NCBI GenBank assembly: GCA_028868305.1
Contig: JAGWUS010000006.1
Location: 1 to 64,000 of the forward strand
DNA length: 64,000 bases
Source: Burkholderiales bacterium
GTDB lineage: Bacteria > Pseudomonadota > Gammaproteobacteria > Burkholderiales > Burkholderiaceae_C
Direction: 5' to 3'
A program made the position numbers and the translations under genes. How positions within the stretch are numbered: the stretch's first letter is position 1; each line of letters starts with the position of its first letter. Positions 1,183-44,565 of the stretch are shown here, piece after piece. Under the pieces are notes generated by a model. The model saw nothing but the letters and a program-made list of their open reading frames with translations, searched no databases and was not told the origin of the DNA.

Positions 1183-1227
1183 GTCCGCCCTTTATTGTTA
1201 TGCACAAGCAGCTATTAATTCAGTAGC
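1183..1227 (-). repeat. Head half of the palindromic repeat split by IS30
   Basis: On the minus strand the sequence starts with the head GCTACTGAATTAATAGC (1211-1227) and continues TGCTTGTGCA, matching the other copies position for position until it meets the IS30 right end after AAAGGGCGGA. The missing tail is found on the left side of the IS at 44-73. This copy lies just upstream of the crotonase start. Confidence 0.75.
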
Positions 1228-1255
1228 AATTCTCCATTCGTTGAAAGCCCGCACC

Positions 1256-1948
1256 ATGACCGAACTCGTCACCTACAGCCTGCAAGACGGCATCGCCACA
1301 CTGACCCTGGCCAACGGCAAGGTCAACGCCATTTCGCCCGACCTGATGGCGTCGTTCAACCGTGCACTGGACCAGGCCGAGCAGGACAAGGCCGTGGTGA
1401 TCGTGACCGGACAGCCGGGCATCCTCAGTGGCGGCTACGACCTCAAGGTGATGATGACCGGCCCGCAGGCGGCACTCGAGATGGTGGAGATGGGATCTCG
1501 GTTGGCGCGGCGCCTGCTGGCCCATCCGTTTCCGGTCATCATGGCCTGCCCCGGCCATGCGGTGGCCAAGGGCGCCTTCCTGCTGCTTTCAGCGGACTAC
1601 CGGCTGGGGGTGGACGGCGCTTTCAACATCGGCCTCAATGAAGTCAAGATTGGCATGACCCTGCACCAGGTCGGCATTGCCCTGGCACGTGACCGCCTGA
1701 CGCCACCGGCCTTCCAGCGCTCGGTCAACAACGCTGAGATGTTCAACCCGCAGGGTGCCATGGCCGCCGGCTTCCTGGACCAGGTGGTGCCTGCCGACCA
1801 GTTGATGTCCGCTTCCAACGCGGTGGCCCAGCAACTCAAGGGCCTGAATATGGCGGCCCACCGGAAGACCAAGCTCAAGGTTCGCAAAGCGTTGCTGGAC
1901 ACACTGGACGCCGCCATCGAGATCGACAAGGTCACCGGTTTGAACTAA
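1256..1948 (+). CDS. Crotonase / enoyl-CoA hydratase family protein
   Basis: A 230-aa crotonase-fold protein acting on acyl-CoA thioesters. The two oxyanion-hole segments are SGGYDL (residues 58-63) and GHAVAKGAF (100-108). The second is atypical: the usual GGG and the first catalytic Glu of enoyl-CoA hydratases are absent, while a Glu in NEVKIGM (129) could serve as the second. The exact reaction (hydration, isomerisation or hydrolysis) therefore cannot be assigned. ATG 1256 is chosen over an upstream in-frame TTG at 1241. The stop codon abuts a palindromic repeat that fills the gap to the convergent LysR gene. Confidence 0.85.
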   Translation: MTELVTYSLQDGIATLTLANGKVNAISPDLMASFNRALDQAEQDKAVVIVTGQPGILSGGYDLKVMMTGPQAALEMVEMGSRLARRLLAHPFPVIMACPGHAVAKGAFLLLSADYRLGVDGAFNIGLNEVKIGMTLHQVGIALARDRLTPPAFQRSVNNAEMFNPQGAMAAGFLDQVVPADQLMSASNAVAQQLKGLNMAAHRKTKLKVRKALLDTLDAAIEIDKVTGLN

Positions 1949-2000
1949 ATCTGCCTCCAGCCCGCGTCCGTCTTGCACAGGCAGCTCTTGTTTTTATAGC
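1949..2000 (-). repeat. Palindromic repeat between crotonase and LysR genes
   Basis: A full-length copy read on the minus strand: head GCTATAAAAACAAGAGC (1984-2000), then TGCCTGTGCA and tail GCGGGCTGGAGGCAGA. The right arm of the head is degraded. The head overlaps the last codons of the LysR gene and provides its TAA stop (1994-1996); the tail ends directly at the crotonase stop. Confidence 0.8.
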
Positions 2001-2914
2001 GCCTTCCAGAACCCCGGGGTGCCGTAGCGCTCCTTGAGATAGTCGATCCACAAGCGCACGCGCAGGGGCAGGTGCTTGCGCTGGGGGAACACGGCGTAGA
2101 TGCCATTGGGCGGCGCGGCGTAGTCTTCCAACACCGCCACCAGCTTGCCCTCGGCGATTTCAGACTCCACTTCCCAGGTGCTGCGCCAGGCAATGCCGTA
2201 ACCCGCCAGGCACCAGTCGTGCAGCACCTGCCCGTCCGAGCAGTCCATGGGGCCACCGGGTTTGAGGTAGGTCACGGCGGCGTTCTCATTGCCGGGCTCG
2301 CGGAAGGCCCAGCCCCGGGTTTGCGAAGCATCGCTGGACAGCGTCAGGCAATGAAAGCGCGCCAGTTCCGCCGGGGTGTGCGGCGTGCCGTGGCGCGCCA
2401 GGTAGGCTGGCGTGGCCACACACAGGCGGCGGTTGTCGGCCATGCGCACGCTCACCAGCGAGGAATCAGGCATATCGCCCACGCGCACCGCGCAGTCGAA
2501 CCCCTCGCCCGCGATATCCACCACGCGGTCGCTCAGGTTGAGGGTGACGGTGACTTCCGGGTGCAGTTCGCGAAACCGGGGCACCAGCGGCGCCACATGG
2601 CGGCGGCCAAAGCCGGCCGGGGCGGTGATGCGCACATGCCCGCTGGCCTTGACGCCCCCGGCGCTCACGCTGGCTTCTGCGTTGGCCACGTCGGCAATGA
2701 TGCGCTGGCAATCCTCCAAAAACGCGCTGCCCTCGTGGGTCAGCGTGATACGCCGGGTGGTGCGGATCAGGAGCTTCACGCCCAGGCGCTCCTCCAGCCC
2801 GTCCAGGCGTCGGCCCATGATGGCGGGGGCCACGCCTTCCGCATTGGCGGCGGCGGTCAGGCTGCCACGGCTGGCAACCGACACAAAGGATTCGAGTTGT
2901 TTGAGTTTGTCCAT
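1994..2914 (-). CDS. LysR-family transcriptional regulator
   Basis: A 306-aa regulator. Residues about 1-60 form the winged helix-turn-helix (MDKLKQLESFVSVASRGSLT, then AxxxxxxPAIMGRRLDGLEERLGVKLL), followed by a LysR substrate-binding domain from about 88 on (GHVRITAPAGFGRRHVAPL). This subgroup commonly acts on a neighbouring metabolic operon, but no target is visible: the gene is convergent with the crotonase and codirectional with the CoA-transferase that precedes it. Its last two codons and stop (CTA TAA) lie inside a palindromic repeat, so its natural C-terminus may have been altered. Confidence 0.92.
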   Translation of the reverse strand: MDKLKQLESFVSVASRGSLTAAANAEGVAPAIMGRRLDGLEERLGVKLLIRTTRRITLTHEGSAFLEDCQRIIADVANAEASVSAGGVKASGHVRITAPAGFGRRHVAPLVPRFRELHPEVTVTLNLSDRVVDIAGEGFDCAVRVGDMPDSSLVSVRMADNRRLCVATPAYLARHGTPHTPAELARFHCLTLSSDASQTRGWAFREPGNENAAVTYLKPGGPMDCSDGQVLHDWCLAGYGIAWRSTWEVESEIAEGKLVAVLEDYAAPPNGIYAVFPQRKHLPLRVRLWIDYLKERYGTPGFWKAL

Positions 2915-2963
2915 TTCAGCCTCTAGACGGTTGGGCGGCAGAGCGCTCTGCTCCGTGTCCTCC

Positions 2964-2978
2964 GCCCGCTGCGCGGGC
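2964..2978. other. GC-rich hairpin upstream of the LysR gene
   Basis: GCCCGC-TGC-GCGGGC forms a 6-bp stem in the gap between the LysR start and the CoA-transferase end. No T run follows on either strand, so it is not a typical terminator. Its role is unknown. Confidence 0.4.
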
Positions 2979-3010
2979 TCCCCCTTTACCTACGCAGATC
3001 GCCCTACCAC

Positions 3011-3062
3011 CCAACCCTCTAGCGATCGTGTAATGGGTGCGGATAGCTATGTTTTTCATAGC
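3011..3062 (-). repeat. Palindromic repeat at the end of the CaiB/BaiF gene
   Basis: Minus-strand copy with head GCTATGAAAAACATAGC (3046-3062), a perfect inverted repeat apart from the centre, and tail GCTAGAGGGTTGG. The head supplies the TGA stop (3056-3058) of the CoA-transferase gene in the same register as in the LysR and mtnN genes. Confidence 0.8.
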
Positions 3063-4240
3063 ACCACTCCCTGGGCGTGCAGATCGGCAACCTCTTGCGC
3101 ACCATAGCCCAGGCTCTGCAATAGCGCGTCGGTATGCTCACCCAGCTTGGGCGGGTTCAGCCGCAGGCCCAGGCGCTCACCATCCAGTTTGATGGGAAGC
3201 AAGGGCACCTGGGTGTGGCGGCCATCGGGCAGCTCCATGGGTGCCAGACCGCCGGTTTGCTGCAGGTGCGGGTCGTCAAACAGGTGCTGCGGGTCGGTGA
3301 TGGGCGCAAACGGCAGGCCCACCTGTTCGAAGCGCTGCGAGAGTTCCGCCCGGCTGAACTGGGCCAGGCGCTGGCGCAGCTCGGGGATGAGCCAGCTGCG
3401 GGCCAGTACGCGGTCGTTGTTGGTGGTAACGCGCGAATCGGCAAACAAGTCGGCGTAGCCAAAGGCTTCGCAAAAGGTCTTCCACTGCCCGTCGCCCACC
3501 ACGGCCAGAAAAATCTGTTCCTTGTCCTTGACGCTGAACACGTCATAAATGCCCCAGGGCGAGATGCGTTCGGGCATGGGCGCGGCGGCCTTGCCGGTCA
3601 CGGCAAACTGCATCATGTGCTGGGCCACCAGGAAGATATTGTTTTCAAACAGTGCACTCTGCACCTCTTGCCCCTTGCCGGTCTGCTGGCGCTGCATCAG
3701 CGCGGCCATGGCACCCACGGCGCCAAAGATGCCGCCCATGATGTCGTTCACGCTGCTTCCTGCGCGCAGCGGATCGCCGGGGCGGCCGGTCATGTAGGCC
3801 AGACCGCCCATCATCTGCACCACCTCGTCCAGCGCGGTGCGGTGGTCGTAAGGGCCGGGCAGAAAACCCTTGTGGCTCACGTAGATCAGGCGCGGGTCCA
3901 GCTTGCTCAAGGACGCGTAATCCAGCCCCAGCTTCTGCATGGTCTCGGTCTTGAAGTTCTCGCTCACGATGTCGGCCGTGGCAATCAGTTTGAGCACCAC
4001 CTCGCGCCCTTTCGCACTCTTCATATCCACCGCAATGCTTTTCTTGTTGCGGTTGAACAGCGGGTAAAAACCGGCGCCACTGCCCAGCAGCTTGCGCGTG
4101 CTGTCGCCGGCCAACGGCTCGACCTTGATGACGTCGGCACCAAGATCCCCCAGCGTCATGCCGCAGGTGGGGCCCATCACCATGTGGGTGAATTCAACGA
4201 CGCGAATACCGGCCAGCGGCAGGGTTTTGGCTTCATTCAT
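3056..4240 (-). CDS. CaiB/BaiF-family CoA-transferase
   Basis: A class III CoA-transferase of 394 aa that moves CoA between carboxylic acids through a mixed anhydride/thioester on a conserved Asp. The N-terminus is typical: LAGIRVVEFTHMVMGPTCGM, then DLGADVIKVEPLAGD and RNKKSIAVDMKSAKG. The Asp is expected in the DEVVQMMGGLAYMTG segment. ATG 4240 (MNEAKTLP) is 5 bases after the upstream gene's stop, giving a two-gene unit with the Dabb protein. The substrate cannot be inferred. The stop codon is embedded in a palindromic repeat. Confidence 0.9.
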   Translation of the reverse strand: MNEAKTLPLAGIRVVEFTHMVMGPTCGMTLGDLGADVIKVEPLAGDSTRKLLGSGAGFYPLFNRNKKSIAVDMKSAKGREVVLKLIATADIVSENFKTETMQKLGLDYASLSKLDPRLIYVSHKGFLPGPYDHRTALDEVVQMMGGLAYMTGRPGDPLRAGSSVNDIMGGIFGAVGAMAALMQRQQTGKGQEVQSALFENNIFLVAQHMMQFAVTGKAAAPMPERISPWGIYDVFSVKDKEQIFLAVVGDGQWKTFCEAFGYADLFADSRVTTNNDRVLARSWLIPELRQRLAQFSRAELSQRFEQVGLPFAPITDPQHLFDDPHLQQTGGLAPMELPDGRHTQVPLLPIKLDGERLGLRLNPPKLGEHTDALLQSLGYGAQEVADLHAQGVVL

Positions 4241-4245
4241 GGCAT

Positions 4246-4545
4246 TTACACCACGTAGTCCAACACCAGAACGTCGTCCAGTGTGGGCTTCAAATTCTCC
4301 ACAAACGCCATGTGGTCCGGGTGCGGCAAGTAGGCGGCGCGTGCCGCGTCGTCGGCAAAAGTCAGGTTGAAGCAATGGGTGAACCCCTTGGCCAGGCCTT
4401 CGGGACTGTTGTTGGTGCCCCATTCCAGGCTTTGCACGGCACTGATCTTGCTGCGCAAATCGGCAAATCCGGCCTCAATACACTGGATCTCCGGCGCGCT
4501 CACAGAGGCCTTGAACTTCAGCAGAACTATGTGGCGGATGGGCAT
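4246..4545 (-). CDS. Dabb (stress-responsive alpha/beta barrel) domain protein
   Basis: A 99-aa single-domain protein starting MPIRHIVLLKFK, with the Dabb-family pattern of an initial beta strand plus His, a WG segment and GFTHCFNLTFADDAARAAYLPHPDH. Such proteins are small dimeric ferredoxin-like barrels, some of which are enzymes (cyclases, decarboxylases) and some of unknown role. It is the first gene of a two-gene unit with the CoA-transferase, which suggests a shared acyl-CoA or aromatic-acid pathway (inference). It is divergent from malate synthase. Confidence 0.85.
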   Translation of the reverse strand: MPIRHIVLLKFKASVSAPEIQCIEAGFADLRSKISAVQSLEWGTNNSPEGLAKGFTHCFNLTFADDAARAAYLPHPDHMAFVENLKPTLDDVLVLDYVV

Positions 4546-4559
4546 GAAATACCTTTGTT

Positions 4560-4594
4560 TTTGTCACAAATAGATTGATATTCTTCCATATAGT
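4560..4594 (+). promoter_or_regulatory. Divergent control region of malate synthase G
   Basis: The 144-base gap between the Dabb gene and glcB is AT-rich. It holds the perfect odd palindrome TTTGTCACAAA (4560-4570), a candidate operator, and TATAGT (4589-4594), a plausible -10 for glcB. No good -35 is seen at 16-18 bases, so an activator may be needed (inference). Confidence 0.35.
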
Positions 4595-4689
4595 GCCACG
4601 CAAAGGATGCAATACAGTATCGCCAAAGGCGAGTCGCTCGGATGCGGCCCCGTTCGCCGATGATTTTTTGTTTATTGGAAAGGTCTCCC

Positions 4690-6909
4690 ATGTCTTCTTC
4701 TGTCACCCGCACTTCTGAGCACCGCCTGCAAGTCGCCACTGTGCTGCACCGCTTTATCAACGAGCAGGTGCTACCCGGCACCGGCGTTGCCCCAGAGGCA
4801 TTCTGGACAGGCTTTGACGCCATCGTGGCCGACTTGGCCCCCAAAAACATCGCCCTGCTGGCCGAACGCGACCGCCTGCAGACCGAGTTGGACACCTGGC
4901 ACGCTGCCAACCCCGGCCCCATCAGCGATATGCCCGCCTACCGCGCGTTTCTGGAAAAAATCGGCTACCTGGTGCCCAGCCCGAAGAAGGTGAAGATCAA
5001 CACCCTCAATGTGGATGCCGAACTCGCCAAGCAAGCCGGCCCCCAGTTGGTGGTACCCATTACCAATGCCCGCTACGCCCTGAACGCCGCCAATGCGCGC
5101 TGGGGTTCGCTGTATGACGCGCTGTACGGCACCGATGTCATTTCGGAAGACAAGGGCTGCGAGAAGGTTGGTCCCAAGGGCTACAACCCCAAACGCGGCA
5201 AGAAAGTGATCGAATACGCACGCCATGTGCTGGACCGCACTGCGCCTTTGAAGAAGGGCTCGCATGTGGGCTCCACCGGTTACGCCGTCAAGGGCGGCGA
5301 CCTGGTCGTCACTTTGAAAGACGGCACTACCAGCAAGCTGGCCGACAAAGACCAGTTCATCGGCTTCCAGGGCGCTGCCAAGGCACCCTCGTCGGTGCTG
5401 CTGCAGCACAACGGCCTGCACCTGGACCTGATCATCAATCGTGCCACGCCCATCGGCAAAAGCGACGCCGCTGGCGTTGCCGACCTGGTGGTGGAAGCCG
5501 CGCTGTCCACCATTCTGGATCTGGAAGACTCTGTGGCTGTGGTGGACGCCGAAGACAAGGTGCTGGCCTACGGTAACTGGCTAGGCATCCTGAACGGTAC
5601 GCTGGTGGAGAGTTTCGAGAAGGGTGGCAAGACCATGACCCGCGGCCTGAATGCCGACCGCGTCTACACAGCGCCCGATGGCAAGAAAGAAGTGAAACTG
5701 CACGGCCGCAGCCTCATGTTTGTGCGCAATGTGGGTCACCTGATGACCAACCCGGCCATCACCTACACCGCCGCCGATGGCTCCACCCAAGAGATCCCAG
5801 AAGGCATCATGGACGCCGTGGTCACCACCACCATCGCCATGCACGACCTGGCCCGCACGAAGAAAGACGCCATCCGCAACTCGCGCAAGGGCTCGGTCTA
5901 CATCGTCAAGCCCAAGATGCACGGCCCCGCAGAAGTCGGCTTTGCCGCCGAGCTGTTCAGCCGCGTTGAGCAGATGCTGGGCCTGCCGGACAGCACCGTC
6001 AAGCTGGGCATCATGGACGAAGAACGCCGCACCTCGGTCAATCTGAAGGCCTGTATTGCCGCCGCCCAAAGCCGCGTGGCCTTCATCAACACCGGCTTCC
6101 TGGACCGCACCGGCGACGAGATGCACACCGCCATGCAGGCCGGCCCCATGATCCGCAAGGCAGACATGAAGAGCAGCGCCTGGATTGCCGCCTACGAGAA
6201 AAACAACGTGCTGGTGGGCCTGTCCTCCGGCCTGCGCGGCAAGGCGCAAATCGGCAAGGGTATGTGGGCCATGCCCGACCTGATGAAGGCCATGATGGAG
6301 CAGAAAATTGCCCACCCCAAGGCCGGTGCCAATACCGCGTGGGTGCCCAGTCCCACCGGAGCCACCCTGCACGCCCTGCACTACCACCAGGTACTGGTCA
6401 GCGATATCCAGAAGGGCCTGGAAAAGACCAACTACGAAAAAGAGCGCGACGGTATCCTGAACAACCTGCTGCAAGTGCCTGTGACTGCTACCCCCAACTG
6501 GACCGATGCCGAGAAGCAGCAGGAACTGGACAACAACGCGCAGGGCATTCTGGGCTACGTGGTGCGTTGGGTCGACCAGGGCGTGGGCTGCTCCAAGGTG
6601 CCGGATATTCACAACATCGGCCTGATGGAAGACCGTGCCACCCTGCGCATCAGCAGCCAGCACATGGCCAACTGGCTGCACCATGGTGTGGTCACCAAGG
6701 CCCAAGTCGAAGAGACCTTCCAGCGCATGGCTGCCGTGGTGGACAAGCAGAATGCTGCTGACAAGCTGTACAAGCCGATGGCCGGCAACTTCAAAACCAG
6801 CATGGCCTACGAAGCCGCGTGCGACCTGGTGTTCAAGGGCCTGGCACAACCCAGTGGCTACACCGAGCCACTGCTGCACGCATGGCGCCTGAAAGTGAAG
6901 GCGGCGTAA
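4690..6909 (+). CDS. glcB: Malate synthase G
   Basis: Condenses acetyl-CoA and glyoxylate to malate, the final step of the glyoxylate bypass and of glycolate use. The 739 aa match the long G isoform (about 720-740) rather than the roughly 530-aa A form. Family blocks are visible: [61 protein letters not shown] and [18 protein letters not shown] near the C-terminus. ATG 4690 is chosen over an upstream frame start at 4642 because AAAGG at 4679-4683 is well spaced and [13 protein letters not shown] begins the family-like N-terminus. It stands alone: isocitrate lyase and glycolate oxidase genes are not in the window. Confidence 0.97.
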
Positions 6910-6972
6910 GCCACCATTCACCCTGAGCTGTCGAAGGCCTGCAAATCCTCAGATTCCTGGAATGCTAAAACC

Positions 6973-7501: not shown

Positions 7502-7525
7502 ATGTCAACTGACCTGAATATAGCC

Positions 7526-8956: not shown

Positions 8957-9032
8957 TGCACTTCCTGAGTCTGAGTCGGATAGCCCGACCCCATGTCACT
9001 CTACCTGATGTGCAACGCGCTACCATGGCGTC

Positions 9033-16959: not shown

Positions 16960-17988
16960 ATGACCCATGCCTTCGAATCCCTGACGCCTGACCTGGTCCT
17001 TGACGCACTCGACAGCGTTGGCCTGCGTGGCGACGGCCGCCTGACTGCCCTCTCCTCCTACGAAAACCGGGTGTACCAGGTGCAACTGGAAGACGCCAGC
17101 GCCGTGGTTGCCAAGTTCTACCGGCCCGGGCGCTGGAGCGATGCGCAGATACAGGAAGAGCACGATTTTTCTGCCGAGCTGATGGCTGCCGAAATCCCCG
17201 TCATCGGCCCCACACAGCTGCTGGGTGCCAGCCTTCACCGTTTTGGCGGCTTTGCGTTCAGCGTCAGCCCGCGTCGGGGTGGCCGCGCTCCTGAACTGGA
17301 CGATGGCGAGGTGCTGGAATGGATTGGCCGTTTTCTGGCGCGCATCCACACCGTTGGCGCCCAGCGCCCATTTGTGCATCGCCCCGCGCTGGACCTCGAA
17401 ACCTTTGGCATCGAACCCATGCAGTGGCTGCTGGAACACGACAGGGTACCCCTGGACGTGCAGTCCGTCTGGACCCGGACCTGCCAGAATGCTATTGATT
17501 CCATAGCTGCTTGTACAACATTGACGGGGGCTTCAGGCCCAAACGGCATAAATTCATCGGGCATACGCCTGCTGCGCCTGCATGGGGACTGCCACCCCGG
17601 GAACATCCTTTGGACCCCTGCCGACGCCGCACCCACCGCAGGGCCCGGACCACATTTTGTCGACCTAGACGATGCCCGCATGGGCCCGGCGGTACAGGAC
17701 TTCTGGATGCTGCTCAGCGGTGACCGCCAGCAGCGCACACGCCAACTGGGCGCACTGGTGGATGGCTACGAACAGTTCCGCGAATTCAACCGCGATGAAC
17801 TGGCCCTCATCGAGCCGCTGCGCACCCTGCGCCTGATCCACTACAGCGCCTGGCTGGCGCGGCGCTGGAGCGACCCGACCTTTCCGGTGAACTTTCCATG
17901 GTTCGGCAGCAGCGACTACTGGCAGGGCCAGGTGCAGATGCTGGAGGAACAATGCGAGGCCATGCAGGAAGACCCCTTGATCGTATGA
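16960..17988 (+). CDS. srkA: Stress response kinase A (YihE/RdoA type)
   Basis: A 342-aa aminoglycoside-phosphotransferase-fold Ser/Thr kinase that in Escherichia coli limits stress-induced death downstream of Cpx. Motifs: ENRVYQVQLEDASAVVAKFYRPGRW at the N-terminus, catalytic LHGDCHPGNILW and metal site FVDLDDARMGP. E. coli SrkA is about 328 aa; the extra length lies just before LRLHGDCH, where residues about 178-194 (AIDSIAACTTLTGAS) are encoded by an in-frame copy of the palindromic repeat. The DUF2520 gene overlaps its stop by ATGA. Confidence 0.92.
   Translation: MTHAFESLTPDLVLDALDSVGLRGDGRLTALSSYENRVYQVQLEDASAVVAKFYRPGRWSDAQIQEEHDFSAELMAAEIPVIGPTQLLGASLHRFGGFAFSVSPRRGGRAPELDDGEVLEWIGRFLARIHTVGAQRPFVHRPALDLETFGIEPMQWLLEHDRVPLDVQSVWTRTCQNAIDSIAACTTLTGASGPNGINSSGIRLLRLHGDCHPGNILWTPADAAPTAGPGPHFVDLDDARMGPAVQDFWMLLSGDRQQRTRQLGALVDGYEQFREFNRDELALIEPLRTLRLIHYSAWLARRWSDPTFPVNFPWFGSSDYWQGQVQMLEEQCEAMQEDPLIV
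17491..17541 (+). repeat. Palindromic repeat inserted in frame in srkA
   Basis: Head GCTATTGATTCCATAGC (17491-17507), then TGCTTGTACA and tail TTGACGGGGGCTTCAGGCC. It aligns without gaps to the copies in proA and leuS and encodes AIDSIAACTTLTGAS in the srkA frame, just before the catalytic loop. Confidence 0.85.
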
Positions 17989-28132: not shown

Positions 28133-29152
28133 TCAAGATCGCCGTGCCAATGGTAAGTTCAACAACAGGTTCTGGGGCTTGAGCTTGAGCCGGTTTTTTT
28201 CGTCCATGGCCATGGCCAGGTACACAGGCCTGCCCGCCACATCGGCCAGCATATCCGCCGGGTTGGCGAACACCAGCCGGAACAGGCACATCAGGCGGCG
28301 CATGCGCTCTTCATCCACTGCCACACCGGTGTACAGATCGTTCAAAATGCTGCTGGCCTGGGCGTCCAGCCCCACATGCCAGACCCAGTGTTCGTCCACA
28401 ATTTCCCGGTCGGTCTGAATGCGCACCTCCACCTTCAGAAAATGCGCGACCCAGCGCTCCAACACCCGGCACAGCGCATCCAGCGCGGGCTGGCCATGGT
28501 TGAGGCTGATCACCATGTCGAAATGTTCTTCGCGCTGCCAGTAGGCGTCGGCATTGTCGGCACCCAACACGTCGAGGTCGACGCTGCGCAGCGGAATGCC
28601 CCCCTGCCTGAGCAGTTCACCCAGCGTGCCAAAGGTGCCGGAGATCGCATGGTGCTCCACCGTTTCGTCATCAGCCGCCATGACCGCACCGTCTTCCAGC
28701 ACCGAAACCTTTTGCGTACGAAACAGCATCTCTGCGGCGCGGGCCTCCAGCGCAGTGGCGTCGGCGCCCAGCACATGGCGCAGCAGCACCTGAGTCAACT
28801 GTTGCACCAGCACCGGCGCCACATCCACGCCCTCGCCCTGAAACAGCGCCATATAGGCAGACTGCAAACTGGGGTGCGACAGCAGGCGCGCGCGAAAGCG
28901 CAGCCACACGGCGTAGTTGTCGGCTGCATCACGGTCCGCCAGCGCAGCCAGTTCCTGCGCGGTAACTTCACGACGAGGAGTTTGTACCAGCTGCGCATGC
29001 AGCGCCAGCTCGGCCGGGCAGGACTCGGCCACCGGGGCCAGTTCAGGACGCTGCAGCAACCCGGCCAAAAAGGCATCGGTCACCTCCAGCGAGCCATCCG
29101 GCATCAAGCCCAGGTACGTGTAACCGCAGCCTGCCCAGTAGCCCTCAGCCAC
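28133..29152 (-). CDS. DUF6352-family protein
   Basis: A 339-aa soluble protein starting [15 protein letters not shown], with [12 protein letters not shown] and [18 protein letters not shown], the pattern of a Burkholderiales family of unknown function (DUF6352). No catalytic motif is seen. GTG 29152 is chosen because it overlaps the proA stop (GTGGCTGA) and starts the conserved region. The tight coupling to proA is conserved in relatives as far as I recall, but a proline link is not shown. Confidence 0.75.
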
Positions 29153-30467
29153 GCACTTCGCCTTCGCCAAGCACCACGTACTTCAGCGATGTCAACCCTT
29201 CAATACCGACCGGGCCACGCGCATGGAATTTGTCGGTGCTGATGCCAATCTCGGCACCCAGTCCGTATTCAAAGCCGTCGGCAAACCGGGTGCTGGTGTT
29301 GACCATCACACTGGCCGAGTCCACCTCACGCAGAAAGCGCTGGGCGTGCATGTGGTCGCGGGTGAGGATCGCATCGGTATGGTGGCTGGAATACTGGTTG
29401 ATGTGGGCAATGGCTTCGTCCACGCCAACCACCACCTTCACACTGACGATGGGCGCCAGGTATTCCTCGTACCAGTCCTGCTCGGTGGCGGGCACCAGGT
29501 TTGCTATTGAATTGATAGCTGCATGTGCACGATCCACGGGGGTCGCAGGCAGATTTTCCTTCAAGATAGCCAGCGCCTCGGGGTCGCAGCGCATCTCCAC
29601 GCCCTTGGCGGCATACACCTTGCCGATCAGCGGCAAAAACTCCGCTGCCACGCCGCGTGCCACCAACAGGCTCTCGGTCGCATTGCAGGGGCTGTACTTG
29701 TTGGTCTTGGCATTGTCGGCCACTTTGACGGCCATGGCGATGTCGCAGGGGTCGTCCACATAGGTGTGGCAGTTGCCGTCCAGGTGCTTGATGACGGGTA
29801 CCTTGGCATCGCGGCTGATGCGCTCGATCAGGCCCTTGCCGCCGCGCGGAATGATTACGTCCACATACTGCGGCATGGTGATGAGCTGACCCACTACCTC
29901 GCGGTCGGTGGTCTGCACCAGTTGCACCGCGTCTGCGGGCAAACCGCTCTCTTGCAGCGCCTGCTGGACCAGTTTGGCCAGCGCCTTGTTGGAGTCAATC
30001 GCCTCCGAGCCACCGCGCAGAATGCAGGCGTTGCCGCTCTTGATGCTCAGGGACGCCGCTTCAATCGTCACGTTCGGGCGGCTCTCGAAAATCATGCCGA
30101 ACACGCCGATGGGCACCCGCATTTGGCCCACGCGGATGCCGCTGGGTTGCTGCTTCATGCCGATGATTTCGCCAATCACATCCGCCATGCTGGCGAGTTG
30201 CTCGCAGCCCTCGGCGCAGGTTTCCAGCACTTTGGGCGTAAGTTTGAGCCGATCCACCATGGGCGCAGCCAGACCGGCGGCCACGGCGCGCTCAATGTCT
30301 TTGGCGTTTTCCACCTGCAGGGCCTGGGTGTTCTCGCGCAGGAGTGCAGCCAGCTTGCGAAGTGCTATGTTTTTAGTAGCCGTCTGCGCACGTGCCATAA
30401 GGGCCGAGGCCGCTTTGGCCTGTACACCCAGTGTGTTGGTGTATTCGGTGATGCTGGTCGCGTTCAT
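29145..30467 (-). CDS. proA: Gamma-glutamyl phosphate reductase
   Basis: Second step of proline synthesis: NADPH reduction of gamma-glutamyl phosphate. The aldehyde-dehydrogenase fold is complete: [35 protein letters not shown] (preceding the catalytic Cys region), [15 protein letters not shown] with the catalytic Cys in SPCNA, and [16 protein letters not shown]. At 440 aa it is about 20 longer than usual; the surplus coincides with a repeat-encoded insert at residues about 305-322 ([11 protein letters not shown]). The proB partner is not in the window. Confidence 0.96.
29503..29553 (+). repeat. Palindromic repeat inserted in frame in proA
   Basis: Plus-strand head GCTATTGAATTGATAGC (29503-29519), then TGCATGTGCA and tail CCACGGGGGTCGCAGGC. 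It lies antisense to proA, so proA reads its complement, giving [17 protein letters not shown] without breaking the frame. It lies before the EDW/E-type segment in a surface-variable region of ProA. Confidence 0.85.
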
Positions 30468-33050: not shown

Positions 33051-33156
33051 AACACACCAAGCGCGGATTGTCCGCAGCATCCGCTTACCTCAAACCCGTT
33101 GTTTGCCCGATAGCGGTCTAAAGTCGCTTCTCATCCCGCGTCCCAAGTAGAAAAAC

Positions 33157-33205
33157 GACTTTAAACCCCCATGGAGAATGCACAACTAGCTACTATTTTT
33201 ATAGC
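33157..33205 (-). repeat. Palindromic repeat next to the holA remnant
   Basis: Minus-strand copy with head GCTATAAAAATAGTAGC (33189-33205), then TAGTTGTGCATTC and tail CATGGGGGTTTAAAG. It lies in a 345-base stretch (33051-33395) without an intact gene, which otherwise holds the holA 3'-end remnant. Confidence 0.8.
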
Positions 33206-33227
33206 GACTTAGCGTAGCACTCGTCCT

Positions 33228-35523: not shown

Positions 35524-35528
35524 GGCGT

Positions 35529-38252
35529 TCAGATCACCACGTTGACCAGGCGGCCAGGCACCACGATCACCTTCTTGGCGGGCGCGCCTGCGGCGAAGGT
35601 CATGAAAGCGTCGCACGCCAGGGCAGCGGCCTCAATGGTCTCTTTGGAAGCCCCTGAGGGCACGGTGACCGAACCGCGCAACTTGCCGTTGACCTGCAAC
35701 ACCAGCTCGATTTCATCCTGCACCAGGGCCGATGCATCGACCTGCGGCCAGGGTGCATCCAGGATGTCGCCCAGGTGGTTGGCATAGCCCAGATCGGACC
35801 ACAGCGCGTGGGCCAGGTGAGGGGTTGCCGGGTACAGGCAGCGCAGCAGGATGCCAAAGCCTTCGATCAGAGCAACCTGTGCACCCGCGCAGTCAGCCGC
35901 CTTGAAGTCTTCCAAAGCGTTGATCATCTTCATGGCGCCAGACACCACGGTGTTGTATTGCATGCGCTGGTAGTCATAGTCCACCTGCTTGAGCACGGTG
36001 TGCATCTCCAGCCGCAACGCCTTGGCTTCCTTGCCAAAATTGACGTCTTTCAGGCTACCAACCCCCGCCACGCTTGCGTGAGCAGCTACAGAATCCATAG
36101 CAGACAGCTTGACGCCAAAATTCCACACGCGGCGCAGGAAGCGGTAGCTGCCTTCCACGGCGGCATCGTTCCACTCCAGTGTGGCCTCGGGCGGAGCGGT
36201 GAACATGGTGTAGAGGCGCGCGGTGTCGGCGCCGTAGCGCTCGATCAGGTCCTGCGGGTCGACGCCATTGTTCTTGGACTTGGACATGGTGCCCACGCCC
36301 TCGTAGTCGATGGCCGTACCCACGGGCAAATCACCCACGGCGTTTTTCAACTTGGCGCCAATGACCTTGCCAGCGTCGTCAAGCACATGTTCCACATCAT
36401 GCGGCCAGAAATACTCCTTGCCACCCTTGTCGCCCTTGCGGGAGTAAATGTGGTTAAGCACCATGCCCTGCGTCAGCAGCTTGGTGAAAGGTTCATCCAC
36501 CTTCACCAGCCCCAGGTCGCGCATGACTTTGGTCCAGAAGCGCGCATACAGCAGGTGCAGGATGGCGTGCTCGATGCCACCGATGTACTGGTCCATGCCG
36601 CTACCACCGGTAGCGGATTTCTGATCCCGCATCCAGTATTCAGTACCACCGGCCACCATGGCGTCCGCGTTGTGCGGATCGCAGTAGCGCATGAAGTACC
36701 ACGAGCTGTCCACAAAGGTGTCCATGGTGTCAGTTTCGCGGCGCGCAGGCTTGCCGCACACCGGGCACACCACGCCCGCGTGAAAACCTTCGTGCTTGTG
36801 CAGCGGGTTGCCAGAGCCATCGGGCACGCAGTCTTGCGGCAGCACTACGGGCAGGTCTTTCTCGGGCACCGGCACGGTGCCATGTTCGTCGCAATGGATG
36901 ATCGGGATCGGCGTGCCCCAGTAGCGCTGGCGGCTCACGCCCCAGTCGCGCAATCGCCAGGTGGTTTTCTTCTCGCCCAGGCCTTTGGCTGCCAGTGCCT
37001 TGGCAACAGCGTCCACCGCCTCCTTATAGTTCAGGCCGCTGAACACGTCGGAATTGACGGTAACGCCGCGCTGCTTGTCACCATACCAGTCCTGCCACTG
37101 GCTGTGGTCATAGGTCAACCCATCCACATGCACCACATCGTGGATAGGGAAGCCGTATTTCTTGGCGAAGGCAAAGTCGCGCTCGTCATGCGCCGGAACG
37201 CCCATGACCGCGCCATCGCCATAGCCCATCAGCACGTAGTTGCCAACCCACACGTCCACATGGCGGCCCGTGAGCGGGTGTGTCACCTGCAGACCGGTAG
37301 GCATGCCCAGCTTTTCCTTGACCGCCAGCTCAGCCTCGGTGGTGCCGCCGGCCTTGCATTCTTCGATGAAGGCGGCCAGCTTCCGGTTGGACTGCGCTGC
37401 ATGCACTGCCAGCGGATGCTCGGGCGCAATGGCGCAGAACGTCACCCCCATGATGGTGTCGGCCCGGGTGGTGAACACGTACATGCGCCCATCACCAATC
37501 AACCGGCCACTGCTGTCCTTGACGTCGTGGGTGAACGCAAAGCGCACGCCCTCGCTCTTGCCAATCCAGTTCTCCTGCATCAGCTTGACGCGTTCAGGCC
37601 AGCCGGCAAGACCTGTCTGCACCTGCTCCAGCAACTCCTGCGCGTAGTCGGTGATCTTCAGGTAGTAGCCGGGAATCTCACGCTTCTCGACGGTCGCGCC
37701 CGTTCGCCAGCCCTTGCCGTCGATCACCTGCTCGTTGGCCAGCACGGTCTGGTCCACCGGGTCCCAGTTGACGATCTGGGTCTTGCGGTAAGCAATGCCC
37801 TTTTCCAACATCTTGAGGAACAACCACTGGTTCCACTTGTAGTAGCTGGGATCACAGGTAGCAACCTCGCGGCTCCAGTCGATGGCCAGGCCCATGGCCT
37901 GCATCTGGCCCTTCATGTAGGCGATGTTCTCGTAGGTCCACTTGGCCGGGGGCACGCCATTCTTCAGCGCTGCGTTCTCGGCGGGCAGGCCGAACGCGTC
38001 CCAACCCATGGGCATCAGCACGTTGTAGCTGTTCATGCGCAGGTAGCGCGTGAGCATGTCGTTGATGGTGTAGTTGCGTACATGGCCCATATGCAGCTTG
38101 CCACTGGGGTAGGGCAGCATGGAGCAGGCGTAGAACTTCTTCTTCGACGCATCCTCAATCACGCGGTAGGCGGTGCGGCCGTTCCACAGAGGTTGTGCCC
38201 AATGGGCATGGGCCGCTTTTTCAACGTCGAGGTGTTGGTATTTGTCTTGCAT
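35529..38252 (-). CDS. leuS: Leucyl-tRNA synthetase
   Basis: Charges tRNA-Leu. Class I signatures are present: HIGH-type [15 protein letters not shown] near residue 50 and KMSKS-type [13 protein letters not shown] in the C-terminal half, with the CP1 editing domain between ([19 protein letters not shown]). At 907 aa it is longer than usual (about 860-880). Residues about 716-733 ([16 protein letters not shown]) in the C-terminal helical domain are encoded by an in-frame palindromic repeat. ATG 38252 ([18 protein letters not shown]) fits the family start. Confidence 0.97.
36053..36101 (-). repeat. Palindromic repeat inserted in frame in leuS
   Basis: Minus-strand head GCTATGGATTCTGTAGC (36085-36101), then TGCTCACGCAAGC and tail GTGGCGGGGGTTGG. 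Read in the leuS frame it gives [15 protein letters not shown], the same frame as the srkA copy (AIDSIAACTTLTGAS). Confidence 0.8.
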
Positions 38253-38313
38253 GAATGGGTGGGCAGCGCACAGGCTGCCAATAGAAACGCCTGGAGTGGA
38301 TTTTAGGCGCTGG

Positions 38314-38742
38314 TCAGCGGGCGGCCGGTGCAGGGGCCTCGGCCACAAACCCGATGCGGTTCAGACCGGCCTTTTGAGCCACCCCCATCACTTCGACCAC
38401 ACGGCCGTAGGGCACGGAGGTATCGGCCCGCAACTGCACTTCAGTATCAGGGTTTTGCTGGGCAGCCTTTTGCAGGCGCTGGGCCAGTTCTTCCAGCGTG
38501 TGGGGTCTGTCGTCCACAAACACTTGGCCGGACTTGTTGATGGCCAGCGCCACGAATTTCGGCACATCCGCTGACTTGCCACCCTCTGCCTTGGGCAATT
38601 CCACCTTGACAGCGCTGACCATCATGGGCGCAGTGATGATGAAGATCACAAGCAGCACCAGCATCACGTCAATCAATGGCGTCATGTTGATCTCGCTCAT
38701 GGGCTGTGCGCCCGGTGTACGTTCGAGTCGGCCGAATGACAT
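38314..38742 (-). CDS. exbD: ExbD/TolR-family biopolymer transport protein
   Basis: A 142-aa inner-membrane protein with one N-terminal helix carrying the essential Asp ([23 protein letters not shown]) and a periplasmic domain ([43 protein letters not shown]). With ExbB it forms a proton-driven motor for TonB- or Tol-dependent envelope processes. No tonB or tolA is adjacent, so Exb versus Tol is not settled. It follows exbB by 30 bases. Confidence 0.92.
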
Positions 38743-38772
38743 ACTATGCAGCCCAGCAGTGAGTTGCTTTAC

Positions 38773-40217: not shown

Positions 40218-40246
40218 GGTCGCTATTCGGTTCGGTGGGTGCAGCC

Positions 40247-40792
40247 CTAGTTGCCCGCGGGCTCCAGGGGAGGGTAGTTGACGGGACCGGTGGTAACCGG
40301 TGGCAGTGGCGGTGCTGCCCCGGTGGAGGCGGGCGAATACTTGCGAAGGCTTTCTGCAGATGCTTCGAGGGGTGGTAGCGCCCCAATTGATACCGGCGAC
40401 TTCAGGGTTGACACAAACTCGGCTTCACTCGGCAGTTCATCGGCTTCCATACGGTTAAGCAGGTCATCCTTGAAGAACAGGGTGACCTTGCGCGACTGTG
40501 GTTCCGCACCCTGACGCTTCAGGGTAAAGACATAGTCCCAGCGGTCAGCATGGAACACACTGGATAACAGTGGCGTGCCCAACACATCGCGCACGGCGGC
40601 GCGGGGCATGCCAAGCTTGAGCACCGCCAGTTGCTCCCGCGTCACAACATTGCCCTGAACCACATCAATTTTGTAGGGCGAAACCGTTGTGGCGACCTTG
40701 CGGGAGTCCGGCAAGCTGCCGCAACCTGCGACAGCCAGCAATACAAGTGCAGTCAGCAAGGATGCGGTAGGACGATGCAGGGCAACAGGCAT
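40247..40792 (-). CDS. bamE: Outer membrane assembly lipoprotein BamE
   Basis: A BAM-complex lipoprotein. Signal and lipobox: [16 protein letters not shown] (lipid Cys about 24). SmpA/OmlA domain: [54 protein letters not shown] in the middle. At 181 aa it carries an extra Pro-rich C-terminal tail ([21 protein letters not shown]) beyond E. coli BamE (about 113 aa), common in betaproteobacteria. It is divergent from fur with an 86-base shared promoter region; TACAAT on the minus strand at 40824-40829 is a plausible -10. Confidence 0.94.
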
Positions 40793-40878
40793 GAGAACAG
40801 TCAGGGAGCGATATGATGCGACGATTGTAGCGGTTGAGGCTATGCTGACCGCCCTTGTCGCTGCGCAGGAAGAGGCCC

Positions 40879-41319
40879 ATGACCAATATCGAAGAACTCA
40901 AAAGCACTGGCCTGAAAGCCACCGTTCCGCGTCTGAAGATACTGGAAGTATTTCAACGCGGCATACTGCGCCACATGACCGCCGAAGACGTCTTTCGGGT
41001 GCTCCTGCAGGAGCGCTCAGATGTGGGTTTGGCTACGGTTTACAGGGTGCTCACGCAGTTTGAGCAGGCCGGGTTGCTGACACGCAGCCAGTTTGAGAGC
41101 GGCAAGGCCGTCTATGAACTCAATGAAGGGCAGCACCATGACCATCTGGTGTGCCTGGATTGCGGCAAGGTGGAGGAGTTTTACGATGTGGAAATCGAAA
41201 AACGCCAGAACGCCGTCGCCAGGGCCAAAGGCTTTTCCATTGCCGACCACGCACTGAGTCTTTACGCCACATGCACCAAGGACAATTGCCCTAACCGGAA
41301 TCGTCCCGGCGAAGCCTAA
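40879..41319 (+). CDS. fur: Ferric uptake regulator Fur
   Basis: A 146-aa metal-dependent repressor. N-terminal winged helix: [35 protein letters not shown]. Metal ligands: the HHDH of [19 protein letters not shown], with Cys pairs CLDC and, near the C-terminus, CTKDNC for the structural zinc. ATG 40879 follows AGGAAGAGG (40867-40875), better than an in-frame start at 40855. It is divergent from bamE and overlaps the hprK end by 4 bases. Confidence 0.96.
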
Positions 41320-42266
41320 TTTCCCTGCGCCATGGCCTTGCGATGGCGTTCGACGAATTCCTTGTAGGTATCGATACCACGCAACTGAAGGATGGTGTTA
41401 CGCACTGCCGCTTCCACCAGCACCGCGATGTTGCGTCCGGCGACCACCTGAATCACCACCTTGCGCACCGGCACACCCAGCACATCCTGAGTCAAAGGTT
41501 CATAGGGAATACGTTCGTACTCGCGCTCCATGGTTTCTCGCCGAACCAGGTGCACGATCAACTTCAAGCGCATCTTTCGCCGAACCGCAGTTTCCCCAAA
41601 GATGCCGCGGATATCCAGCAGTCCAATGCCACGGACTTCCAGCAGGTTTTGCAGCAGTTCCGGGCAACGCCCCTCAATGGTCGTCTGGTTGATGCGAAAC
41701 AGATCAACGGCATCGTCAGCCACCAAACCATTGCCACGGGAGATCAATTCCAGCCCCAACTCGCTCTTGCCCAGACCGGACTCGCCCGTAATCAGCACGC
41801 CCAGTCCCAGGATGTCCATGAACACGCCATGCATGGTGGTGCGATCGGCAAAGTGCTTGGACAGATAGGCCCGCAACACATCGATAACAAACGCGGACGA
41901 CTCTTCGGTCGCAAACATGGGAATTTGCGCACGCTCACACATGGAGAGCAGGGCCTCAGGGGCCGTCTGGCCATCGGCAAGCACCAATACTGGCGGCTCC
42001 AGCGTCACGATGCGCGCGATTCTGCGGGCACAGTCTTCCGGGGTGGCGTTGGTGATGTAGGCGACTTCACGCTCACCCAGAATCTGGACACGGTAGGGGT
42101 GGATGTAGTTCAGGTAACCGACCAGATCCGCACCCGAACGCGCGGCGCGCACCGCGACCTCGTCGAAACGGCGCTCAGATGCGCCCAGACCGGCAACCCA
42201 TTCCCAATGCAGGAGACCACGAAATTCTTCAAACAGGACGTCAGCACTGACAACGGTCGGTTTCAT
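41316..42266 (-). CDS. hprK: HPr kinase/phosphorylase
   Basis: Phosphorylates a Ser on HPr-type phosphocarriers and reverses it. The 316 aa have the N-terminal domain and a C-terminal P-loop kinase: [35 protein letters not shown] and the family signature [19 protein letters not shown]. In proteobacteria it accompanies the nitrogen-PTS and tunes regulation rather than sugar uptake. It follows ptsN and hpf on the same strand. Confidence 0.96.
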
Positions 42267-42292
42267 TGCTACTCAGCCACGCTGCACCGGTC

Positions 42293-42760
42293 TTAACCGA
42301 CCTGGGCAGACTGCCAGCCTGCGACCAGGCCATGAAGCTGCAGGGCGTCTCTGCACTCTGTGAGCTTCGTGCGCAAAGAAGCGTCGCTGAGCAGTTCTGC
42401 GATTTCCGACAAAATTTCGAGGTGCTTCTGTGTTGCTGCCTCTGGCACCAGCAGGAAGATCAACAGGCTCACCGGCTGGTCGTCGGGGGCATCGAAACCG
42501 ACAGGACTCAGCAACTGGAATACCGCCGCCAGCGGTGCCTTCAACCCCTTGATTCGGCCGTGCGGAATGGCCACGCCATGCCCCAAACCCGTCGAGCCCA
42601 GCCGCTCCCGGGAGAAAAGGCTATCCGTTACCAAGGCTCGGCTGAGGCCATGCAGATTCTCGAACAGCAACCCGGCCTCTTCAAATGCGCGCTTCTTGCT
42701 GGTGACATCAACCTGCGCAAGCACTTGCGAGGGAGGCAGGATATTGGATAGTCGGTTCAT
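42293..42760 (-). CDS. ptsN: Nitrogen-regulatory PTS enzyme IIA
   Basis: A 155-aa EIIA-Ntr phosphoacceptor. The active His is in GLGHGVAIPHGRIKGLKAPLAAVF, with PVSLLIFLLVPEAATQKHLEILSEIAELLSD downstream. It affects nitrogen, potassium and phosphate regulation in enteric bacteria; here the neighbours hpf and hprK fit the standard cluster. It is separated from hpf by a terminator-like hairpin, so it may be partly independently transcribed. Confidence 0.95.
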   Translation of the reverse strand: MNRLSNILPPSQVLAQVDVTSKKRAFEEAGLLFENLHGLSRALVTDSLFSRERLGSTGLGHGVAIPHGRIKGLKAPLAAVFQLLSPVGFDAPDDQPVSLLIFLLVPEAATQKHLEILSEIAELLSDASLRTKLTECRDALQLHGLVAGWQSAQVG

Positions 42761-42781
42761 GATTTGAGGCGATTATGCACA

Positions 42782-42808
42782 CAAAAAAACCGCCCAGTGA
42801 CGGGCGGT
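42782..42808 (-). terminator. Terminator between hpf and ptsN
   Basis: On the minus strand ACCGCCC-N6-GGGCGGT followed by a run of T (TTTTTTTGTG). The 7-bp GC stem with seven T residues is a canonical intrinsic terminator. The plus strand also carries T-rich sequence after the stem. Confidence 0.88.
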
Positions 42809-42833
42809 TTTGGCTTTTTGTCAAGGACGGCGA

Positions 42834-43163
42834 CTACATCAGGCGCTTGGGTGCCTCATGGTGATGATTCTGCACACGGTCCTTGTGGCGCACGACCTGG
42901 CGGTCCAGTTTGTCGACAAGTTCATCCACCGCGGCATAGAGATCTTCATGGGAACTTTCTGCAAACATGTCACTGCCTTTCACGTGAATATTGCACTCGG
43001 CACGCTGCCGTCGCTCCTTTTCTTTTTGCTTCTCAACGGTTAGCAAAACCTTGACGTCTACGACCTGATCGAAGTGGCGCATGATGCGATCAAGCTTGGT
43101 CGTAACGTAACTGCGCAGGGCCGGGGTAACTTCAAGGTGATGACCGCTGATCGTCAAATTCAT
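42834..43163 (-). CDS. hpf: Ribosome hibernation promoting factor, short form
   Basis: A 109-aa HPF/RaiA-family protein that binds the 30S subunit in stationary phase and blocks translation. It begins [31 protein letters not shown] and ends with [22 protein letters not shown]; the long-HPF dimerisation domain is absent. ATG 43163 follows GGAGG 7 bases upstream. In many betaproteobacteria rpoN lies directly upstream; here the upstream side is a 350-base gap and divergent corA. Confidence 0.94.
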
Positions 43164-43372
43164 AAATAGCCTCCAGTTGCTCTCAGGTTGAAAAAGTCTG
43201 CCACTTACAGCGGCGGACCGACACACTATTCACCATATCTGGCCAAGTTGTCGTCTTCACTATGCGCCCGATTATTTTTGTTTGCAATGCCTTTTGCTGA
43301 TGCACTGCAGCAAATAAAGGGCTCACCCGTCCTGAGCAGGCACTTACTGCCAACGAAGTACCGGCGCGGTGC

Positions 43373-43513
43373 GATAATTGGCGCCTGAAAACTTTTGGAG
43401 AAGGCTCCTTGGAAAACTACCCCAGTCGGTAGCTTTCAACTCCCACCACTGCATCGGGGTTGAAAGCAACACCACACCGCCCTTGCAGAAGCCAACTTAA
43501 TTGGGAGTGAGCC
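43373..43513 (+). promoter_or_regulatory. Structured leader upstream of corA
   Basis: The 350-base hpf-corA gap has no gene. GATAAT at 43373-43378 is a possible -10. Downstream lie two hairpin candidates: CTACC...GGTAG around 43417-43432, and the 9-bp perfect repeat GCTTTCAAC (43432-43440) with GTTGAAAGC (43459-43467). They overlap slightly, so they could form alternative structures ahead of the corA start. No known riboswitch is recognised. The hpf promoter must also lie in this gap. Confidence 0.4.
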
Positions 43514-44503
43514 ATGCTCAACATCTTTACGCTTGCCAATGGCCGACTCTTCCAGGAAGAGATCGAGTCCCTGGAAGAGCTATCCCGCTTTCAACCTATC
43601 TGGGTGGACCTGGAGTCCCCCACTGTGGAAGAAAAGCGCTGGGTCAAGCAGTATTACGGTCTGTCCATCCCGGAGGATGCGATGGACGAGGACATCGAGG
43701 AGTCCGCACGGTTTTATGCCGAAGACAATGGCGAACTGCATATCCGCAGCGACTTTTTGATCGCCGACGAGGAAGAACCCAGAACGGTACGCGCAGCCTT
43801 TATTCTGAATTTGGTGAACGACGAGTTGAAGAGCAAAGGGGTGCTGTTCTCCATTCACGATGAGGATGTGCCAGTATTTCGGCTGCTACGCATGCGCGCA
43901 CGCAGGGCACCAGGGCTGATTGAAGACGCCAAGGAAGTTCTGCTCAAACTTTTTGATGCTGACGCAGAGTACTCTGCCGATACACTGGAAGGCATCTACG
44001 ATGAGCTTGAAAATGTCAGCAAGAAAGTTCTTTCTGGCAACGTCACCGATGCCATCGCTGGGGAAGCGCTCGGTGCCATAGCGCGCCACGAAGACTTGAG
44101 TGGTCGTATCCGTCGCAATGTCATGGACACCCGCCGCGCGGTGAGCTTCATGATGCGCAGCAAGATGCTCAATGCCGAACAATTCGACGAAGCACGCCAG
44201 ATTCTGCGCGACATTGACTCACTTGACAGTCATACTGCCTTTCTGTTTGACAAGATCAACTTCCTGATGGACGCGACGGTCGGTTTCATCAACATCAACC
44301 AGAACAAGATCATCAAGATCTTTTCTGTTGCAAGCGTTGCATTATTGCCACCGACACTGGTGGCCAGTGTCTACGGGATGAACCTCAAGTTTCCAGAACT
44401 GGAATTCCTCGGGGGATGGAGCTATCCCTACACTGTGGCGGTCATGGCGGCCAGCGCAATGGTGCCCATGTGGTATTTCCGACGGCGCGGCTGGCTCAGT
44501 TGA
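43514..44503 (+). CDS. corA: CorA-family magnesium/cobalt channel
   Basis: A 329-aa divalent-cation channel. A large cytoplasmic N-terminal funnel (MLNIFTLANGRLFQEEIES...) and long stalk helix lead to two C-terminal helices with the selectivity motif YGMN (SVALLPPTLVASVYGMNLKFPEL) and a final basic cytoplasmic tail (FRRRGWLS). ATG 43514 follows GGGAG. A structured leader upstream may regulate it (inference). Its 3' side is bordered by a palindromic repeat. Confidence 0.95.
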   Translation: MLNIFTLANGRLFQEEIESLEELSRFQPIWVDLESPTVEEKRWVKQYYGLSIPEDAMDEDIEESARFYAEDNGELHIRSDFLIADEEEPRTVRAAFILNLVNDELKSKGVLFSIHDEDVPVFRLLRMRARRAPGLIEDAKEVLLKLFDADAEYSADTLEGIYDELENVSKKVLSGNVTDAIAGEALGAIARHEDLSGRIRRNVMDTRRAVSFMMRSKMLNAEQFDEARQILRDIDSLDSHTAFLFDKINFLMDATVGFININQNKIIKIFSVASVALLPPTLVASVYGMNLKFPELEFLGGWSYPYTVAVMAASAMVPMWYFRRRGWLS

Positions 44504-44511
44504 TTTTAAAG

Positions 44512-44565
44512 AAATCACCTTCTAGCCTTTACGGAAACTTAATGGATAGCTATTATTTTTATAGC
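44512..44565 (-). repeat. Palindromic repeat between corA and mtnN
   Basis: Minus-strand copy: head GCTATAAAAATAATAGC (44549-44565), then TATCCATTAAG and tail TAAAGGCTAGAAGGTGATTT. It fills almost the whole gap between convergent corA and mtnN. It supplies the mtnN stop TAA (44559-44561) in the same register as in the LysR and CoA-transferase genes. Confidence 0.85.

Follow-up and report, generated by a model that had tools for sequence, protein, structure and literature searches.

A long repeat motif is dispersed through a stretch of 64,000 nucleotides of a Burkholderiales bacterium (assembly GCA_028868305.1, contig JAGWUS010000006.1, positions 1 to 64,000; referred to as the window) and through the genome to which it belongs, the home genome G000. 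We read this repeat, with a probability of roughly one half, as a recognition motif that is maintained genome-wide by selection or drive, most likely as an uptake tag for natural transformation. The motif lies over genes on both strands, occurs chromosome-wide, has lineage dialects and is missing from congeners, which points to a trans-acting recogniser, and since uptake sequences are a known kind of element with these traits, the uptake tag is favoured. More tentatively, the Comamonadaceae may have an unrecognised self-DNA recognition system, based on an unusually long tag of the uptake type, composed of a 14-base core and lineage extensions. Molecular drive would write this tag over genes and spacers alike, and sister species would gain or lose it.

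The repeat family in the home genome and in the window

The home genome comprises 3.48 Mb in 94 contigs. Judged by ProA, its nearest named relatives are Curvibacter sp. GWA2_63_95 (91%) and Rhodoferax sp. TH121 (90%); Rhodoferax is a member of Comamonadaceae and G000 is Rhodoferax-like. The head of the motif, GCTAY-N7-RTAGC, was found in this genome 298 times (about one per 13 kb) against 29 for a reversed-pattern control, and the head followed by TGC, with at most one mismatch, at 162 places against 5. This is over-representation of the kind that characterizes DNA uptake sequences (DUS) and uptake signal sequences (USS). A covariance model, termed R1, was built from 36 copies (eight of the window and 28 from elsewhere in the home genome) aligned without gaps over 71 columns, locus L024 being omitted for its poor tail. 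In the home genome R1 gave at least 150 full-length matches of 41-78 bits (150 scored among 1296 candidates). The family is thus dispersed far beyond chance, as an earlier note written from the letters of the window had proposed; the same note had suggested a genome-wide covariance-model search, whose outcome would have spoken against a family at chance-level counts, and the counts obtained lie well above that.

Within the window the R1 search, which was run unfiltered, gave nine matches (E 3.6e-19 to 2.4e-7), six on the minus and three on the plus strand. Eight of the nine are training members of R1, therefore independent support comes from the genome-wide counts. All eight copies listed by the earlier note lie where it had placed them, and its list was incomplete by a ninth, in proA. 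A fragment at 44-73 that it had added is unsupported as a copy (R1 match at 37-82, minus strand, E 0.062). Its remark that the family is absent right of 45 kb holds for the window, where the next match, at 48222-48268, reaches only E 2.8. A scan of the window against Rfam gave no matches. The nine copies are as follows (E-values from R1; ORF, open reading frame).

1163..1233, minus strand: in the spacer that separates a transposase ORF from an ORF of the enoyl-CoA hydratase family; E 3e-10
1936..2006, minus strand: head contains the stop codon of a LysR-type gene (1994-2914, minus); E 4.7e-15
2998..3068, minus strand: head contains the stop codon of a CoA-transferase III gene (3056-4423, minus); E 2.4e-7
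17485..17555, plus strand: in a PF01636 kinase-family gene (16960-17988, plus), co-oriented, frame 0; E 5e-18
29497..29567, plus strand: in proA (29145-30467, minus), antisense; E 3.6e-19
30358..30427, plus strand: the ninth copy, antisense within the conserved N-terminal region of proA, length unchanged; E 1.6e-7
33141..33211, minus strand: spacer, without ortholog in the loci compared; E 5.3e-13
36037..36107, minus strand: in the leucyl-tRNA synthetase (LeuRS) gene (35529-38348, minus), co-oriented, frame 0; E 2.3e-12
44501..44571, minus strand: head contains the stop codon of a PNP_UDP_1 gene (44559-45299, minus); E 1e-12

Three genes of the window terminate within a head. The transposase ORF at 117-1154 (HTH_38 and rve domains), which we take to be IS30-like, lies next to the copy at 1163-1233 and also next to the doubtful match at 37-82.

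Anatomy of the motif

From the G000 alignment and the dialects, the unit reads approximately AAATT-GCTAY-N7-RTAGC-TGC-TYGYGCA-(10)-GGSGCTAGAGGC-NATTT. Its parts are a 14-base core, RTAGCTGCTYGYGC, a left arm, which is GCTAY-N7 in the home lineage, and a right box, GGGSGCTAGAGGC-ATTT; the information above background amounts to 55.6 bits in G000 and to 58.4 bits in G605, a genome assembled as one contig. The length of about 50 bp that the earlier note gave was too short for a conserved unit of about 60-70 bases, and the TGC after the head is absent in three of the eight copies.

The head is a dyad, yet its arms show no covariation (Fisher p 1.0 for 53 G605 copies, in which head positions 4 and 12 are T-A in 22, T-G in 13, C-A in 9, C-G in 6 and other combinations in 3); the deviation seen for 97 copies from named loci even runs away from pairing (p 0.002). 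A 4-bp stem in the middle, GCGC/GCGC, is paired in 0.92-0.96 of the G605 copies, while one of its pairs is kept in only 0.11 of those of G000, and the consensus folds no better than shuffles (z -0.01 as RNA, -1.25 as DNA). Since the arms do not covary, the stem is not kept in G000 and the RNA behaves like shuffles, no hairpin is conserved across the whole motif family.

Insertion or substitution

Comparison with orthologs shows that most intragenic copies arose by base substitution over existing codons, on either strand. The earlier note had likened the repeat to a miniature inverted-repeat transposable element (MITE) or a Rickettsia palindromic element (RPE), and spread by insertion is not borne out for the greater part of the intragenic copies. 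Copies were compared with orthologous sequence free of the motif. The first set covered 118 loci and 132 copies within a single genus; 12 of its intragenic sites had motif-less comparators, and at 10 of them an equal-length motif-less ortholog was found, as at the LeuRS site 36037..36107 (seven of ten motif-less congeners). The second set, 80 named loci and the window with 121 copies, held five such sites, three of them with equal length: BenE (18/18 comparators), the ProA N-terminus (12/13) and LeuRS (11/29). When both sets are merged (three sites are shared), 11 of 14 distinct intragenic sites have at least one motif-less ortholog of exactly equal length. At two sites of PutA and in YggS, a 3-hydroxyisobutyrate-type dehydrogenase, a lipoyl ligase and BenE, motif-rich species carry the motif and motif-poor ones use other codons for similar residues (alignments judged by eye). 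The ProA N-terminal site aligns gap-free across congeners and, among the matches listed, also to four PDB homologs, as YggS does to three.

The codon test was made at strong consensus positions in nine rows, that is eight distinct sites. Motif-less orthologs matched the consensus at 0.57, 0.61 and 0.16 of codon positions 1, 2 and 3 (chance 0.26), and motif-bearing orthologs at 0.77, 0.81 and 0.78. Gapped sequences and scores of 8-25 bits were excluded from this test, and the ProA N-terminal site of the first set (no alignment) and a KDPG-aldolase site (no motif-less partner) were dropped. Because motif-less orthologs match at positions 1 and 2 but not at 3, the protein preceded the motif, which was completed mainly at third codon positions. 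The loops between the arms retain native codons at the ProA N-terminus and in LeuRS (by eye), as would not be expected had the motif been copied from a donor. In orthologous spacer copies from four sites, 20% of the high-information positions differ and 51% of the low-information ones; this speaks for upkeep, although copies were counted only above a score threshold.

Several length differences weigh against substitution. Three of the 14 intragenic sites have no equal-length ortholog: a variable site in L167, the window site 17490, for which the single motif-less comparator is 18 nt shorter, and ProA 29503. The last is 42-66 nt longer than in 14 motif-less congeners, 51-54 nt longer than in 56 of 62 named loci, and 14 residues longer than PDB homolog 4ghk, presumably a ProA of the B. 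thailandensis type. Relative to PDB homologs, a few residues are additional at the site in LeuRS and in the hydroxyisobutyrate-type dehydrogenase, as they are in some motif-less congeners. At the copy in L197 the excess over one congener is 99 nt. Among spacers, L201 exceeds three congeners by 53-78 nt and L326 exceeds twelve loci by 49-102 nt, several of these loci having opposite-orientation copies; such copies and the score threshold blur the spacer comparisons. Insertion or deletion thus accompanies motif gain or loss at some sites, and because of these differences the in-situ origin is claimed only for most intragenic copies. The comparison with empty sites, which the earlier note had recommended, yields equal length at the majority of intragenic sites, with insertion possible at ProA 29503 and in some spacers. 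In the spacer downstream of proA the motif has opposite orientation between relatives (L326:11321-11391 and L294:3112-3182).

Distribution and dialects

Of 399 order-level genomes, three contain the core RTAGCTGCTYGYGC at least ten times, all three being of the window's family; outside that family no genome exceeds three copies. The pointer in the earlier note to a similar repeat in Comamonadaceae proved right: in 299 genomes of the family the core occurs in 0 to 416 copies, with a match in 157 genomes and ten or more copies in 51 (a hand count; the reversed control reaches up to 23 in one genome, so that a few low counts may be due to chance). The counts differ sharply among congeners, i.e., 100 vs 0 and 0 in g273, 71 and 100 vs 0 in g227, 94 vs 4 and 0 in g5, and 66 vs 3 and 1 in g3, and for the head with TGC they run from 0 to 238 in the 103 genomes of the home genus. 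Part of this swing reflects dialect: with the core pattern G515 and G674 give six and three copies, and with the head pattern 48 and 62.

The dialect of G000 is TTGTGCA..GGGGGC and that of G605 TCGCGCA..GGGCGC. As read from 10 to 30 copies per genome, chosen by core or head pattern, G377 has GCGCTTA..ATAAGCGC, which fits a motif of Acidovorax ebreus (PMC5217627), and G093 has the core but hardly any of the head. The coding sites in LeuRS, PutA and YggS are shared between genomes, and at each of the three every genome has its own dialect form; in LeuRS, TCGCGCA..GGGCGC of G605 stands against TCACGCA..GGGGGT of G000, and the motif is present only in the motif-rich congeners (10) and absent from the motif-poor ones (10).

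Genomic context

For the context analysis genes were called with our own gene caller. Of 90 copies in G000 and G605, 28 lie inside genes, 11 co-oriented and 17 antisense, and all 11 co-oriented copies use the single frame that is open in the consensus. The other 62 are spacer copies, 18 of them between convergent and 7 between divergent genes, and in 28 the head lies within -20 to 30 nt of an upstream co-oriented stop. The core matches of G605 are distributed over both strands (79 plus, 66 minus), and their spacing, for the 100 of 145 places listed (3.0 Mb), resembles a random one, with 3 to 14 per 300 kb and a coefficient of variation of 0.93 vs 0.98 for random.

A proposed recognition tag and its rivals

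In the favoured mechanism a trans-acting system would promote the presence of the motif throughout the chromosome: a pilus-borne receptor would preferentially take up tag-carrying DNA, and recombination of the imported DNA would spread and refresh tags wherever the uptake system is retained. Lineages without that system would lack or lose the tag, and spacer copies, often at a stop codon, would occupy places free of protein constraint. Molecular drive of this type has been proposed for the DUS of Neisseria and the USS of Haemophilus. By analogy with such systems the motif may be linked to natural transformation, which has been described within the family (PMC4212676). Acidovorax temperans gave transformants only from own-species DNA, and uptake by Verminephrobacter eiseniae was reported as sequence-specific, was lost in type IV pilus mutants and was cut at most about 10-fold by an excess of salmon DNA up to 1500-fold (PMC4212676).

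There are also observations that speak against an uptake tag. The own-species transformation of A. temperans could stem from low homology instead, and A. delafieldii, in which a 12.6-kb locus (L294) holds three motif copies, was not transformable in the same paper (PMC4212676). ComEC is found in 43 of 44 congeners irrespective of motif count; G000 alone gave none with profile and congener protein queries, which is either a loss or an assembly gap. The known uptake sequences, of 9-11 bp (PMC4212676), are shorter and denser than the motif, which has 56-58 bits and occurs about once per 13 kb. Viral contigs contain 72 stretches with the motif vs 10 with the reversed pattern, 51 of the 72 holding a full-length copy. 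A depletion test for mobile DNA, by BLAST of the consensus against plasmids and phages, was dominated by an integron cassette and one record and left no usable denominator. ComEC was also considered as a competence marker and set aside as not discriminating. Two side observations concern comEC itself: in congener G699 the gene bears two motif copies (L211:1132-1202, minus, and 2194-2264, plus; R1 E 1.7e-16 and 7.7e-16), and in G752, a one-contig genome with no motif copies, the comEC match is split in two, about 790 bases apart (G752:C1:4834255-4837454).

The main rival to the uptake tag, although on balance an unlikely one, is a site to which a protein of chromosome organisation, replication or recombination binds and which selection on the chromosome, instead of DNA uptake, would maintain; the sites of Noc, SlmA and MatP as well as Chi are examples. 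The same in-situ evolution, the occurrence on both strands and the spread over the first 3.0 Mb of G605 (on the places listed) agree with it, a dyad head would fit a dimeric binder, and ComEC does not track the motif. About 100 copies in one species and none in its congener are awkward for a core chromosomal function, the places listed in G605 show no clustering, and 56-58 bits are much for the site of a single protein. Decidedly less probable is a MITE- or RPE-like mobile element, inserting as a unit of about 60 bp and tolerated in frame within genes. The added length at ProA 29503 and in the spacers L201 and L326 is what such an element would leave behind, but the equal length at 11 of 14 intragenic sites, the third-codon-position signature, the native codons retained in the loops, the gapless alignment to PDB homologs at the ProA N-terminus and YggS and the head arms without compensatory pairing are not.

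An RNA-level element of the 3' end, a terminator or a stability element, is very improbable. It draws on the excess of convergent spacers (18 vs 7), which the A. ebreus copies share (PMC5217627), and on the 28 of 62 heads near an upstream co-oriented stop; it is opposed by the 28 of 90 intragenic copies, 17 of them antisense, by the consensus RNA that folds like its shuffles, and by head arms that do not covary and that in named loci depart from pairing.

The motif in an integron cassette

A copy of the Acidovorax dialect is held by a DUF1010 cassette, which we take to be gcuF/orfF, of a class 1 integron on E. coli plasmid NZ_MZ513635.1, between dfrA12 and aadA2 (L273:2501-2540). At E 0.01 the consensus matches 1752 plasmid records, and a DUF1010 annotation stands on 31 of 40 among the matches listed. 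This hints at a Comamonadaceae chromosome as the source of the cassette. In L273:2352-2642 (minus strand) residues 31-95 fall within the Pfam match to DUF1010, and the reverse strand of the motif encodes residues 35-47 (LASSACVASASSY); translation of the repeat may thus account for part of the DUF1010 protein family.

Significance

In Neisseriaceae and Pasteurellaceae the uptake of DNA is known to be sequence-specific, and one may ask why, and how often, such specificity evolves. Here a large and mostly environmental family offers a candidate tag whose copy number runs from 0 to 416 per genome, which comes in dialects and which some congeners lack. If the uptake tag is true, one more family joins the few with sequence-specific transformation, the origin, decay and receptor co-evolution of tags become directly testable, and the transformation specificity of Acidovorax and Verminephrobacter gains a candidate cause. 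Should the motif be a chromosome-binding site instead, it would still be an unusually long one imposed on coding sequence.

Comparison with known systems

The closest descriptions concern Polaromonas naphthalenivorans, with ATAGCT(N)22CAAAAG (125 copies, 18 in genes), and A. ebreus, with GCTTAT(N)5AAGCG (114 copies, 44 convergent and 4 divergent), which PMC5217627 lists as potential novel motifs, with no function, in-situ evidence or mutual link given there. By spacing and letters, both look like dialects of the Comamonadaceae family. No title or opening of an abstract was found that links the motif to DNA uptake, and only PMC5217627 resembles the family, in a literature search whose coverage left most subscription journals outside. 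As far as that literature shows, the unification into one family with dialects, the evidence for a substitution origin of most intragenic copies and the uptake hypothesis are new.

A conserved hairpin, which is a trait of repetitive extragenic palindromes and their associated transposases (REP/RAYT), is not seen in the Comamonadaceae motif (head arms p 1.0). RPEs are insertions that add a peptide; the motif shares with them the in-frame occurrence within genes, but at 11 of 14 intragenic sites a motif-less ortholog has equal length. Likewise the shorter empty site expected for a MITE is missing at most intragenic sites, and possible for ProA 29503 and some spacers. The BRE repeats of Bordetella and other Betaproteobacteria are also small repeats that occur in Comamonadaceae and others, some of them intragenic, but they are 75-91 bp long, tandem and GC-rich (PMC3110155).

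The DUS of Neisseriaceae and the USS of Pasteurellaceae differ from the motif in being short and dense: a unit of about 60 bases with a 14-base core and 56-58 bits stands against 9-11 bp, and where uptake sequences number hundreds to thousands per genome (PMC2346458), the motif occurs about once per 13 kb. ComEC does not track the Comamonadaceae motif, whose uptake role is putative and whose receptor is hypothetical, and the motif is not filed here as a DUS. In common with DUS and USS it is over-represented, occurs on both strands, in genes and at gene ends, has dialects, evolves in situ at most intragenic sites and is patchy among relatives, and own-species or sequence-specific transformation has been reported within the family (PMC4212676). 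By this analogy, and at about even odds, the way in which the motif most probably works would be that of a DUS.

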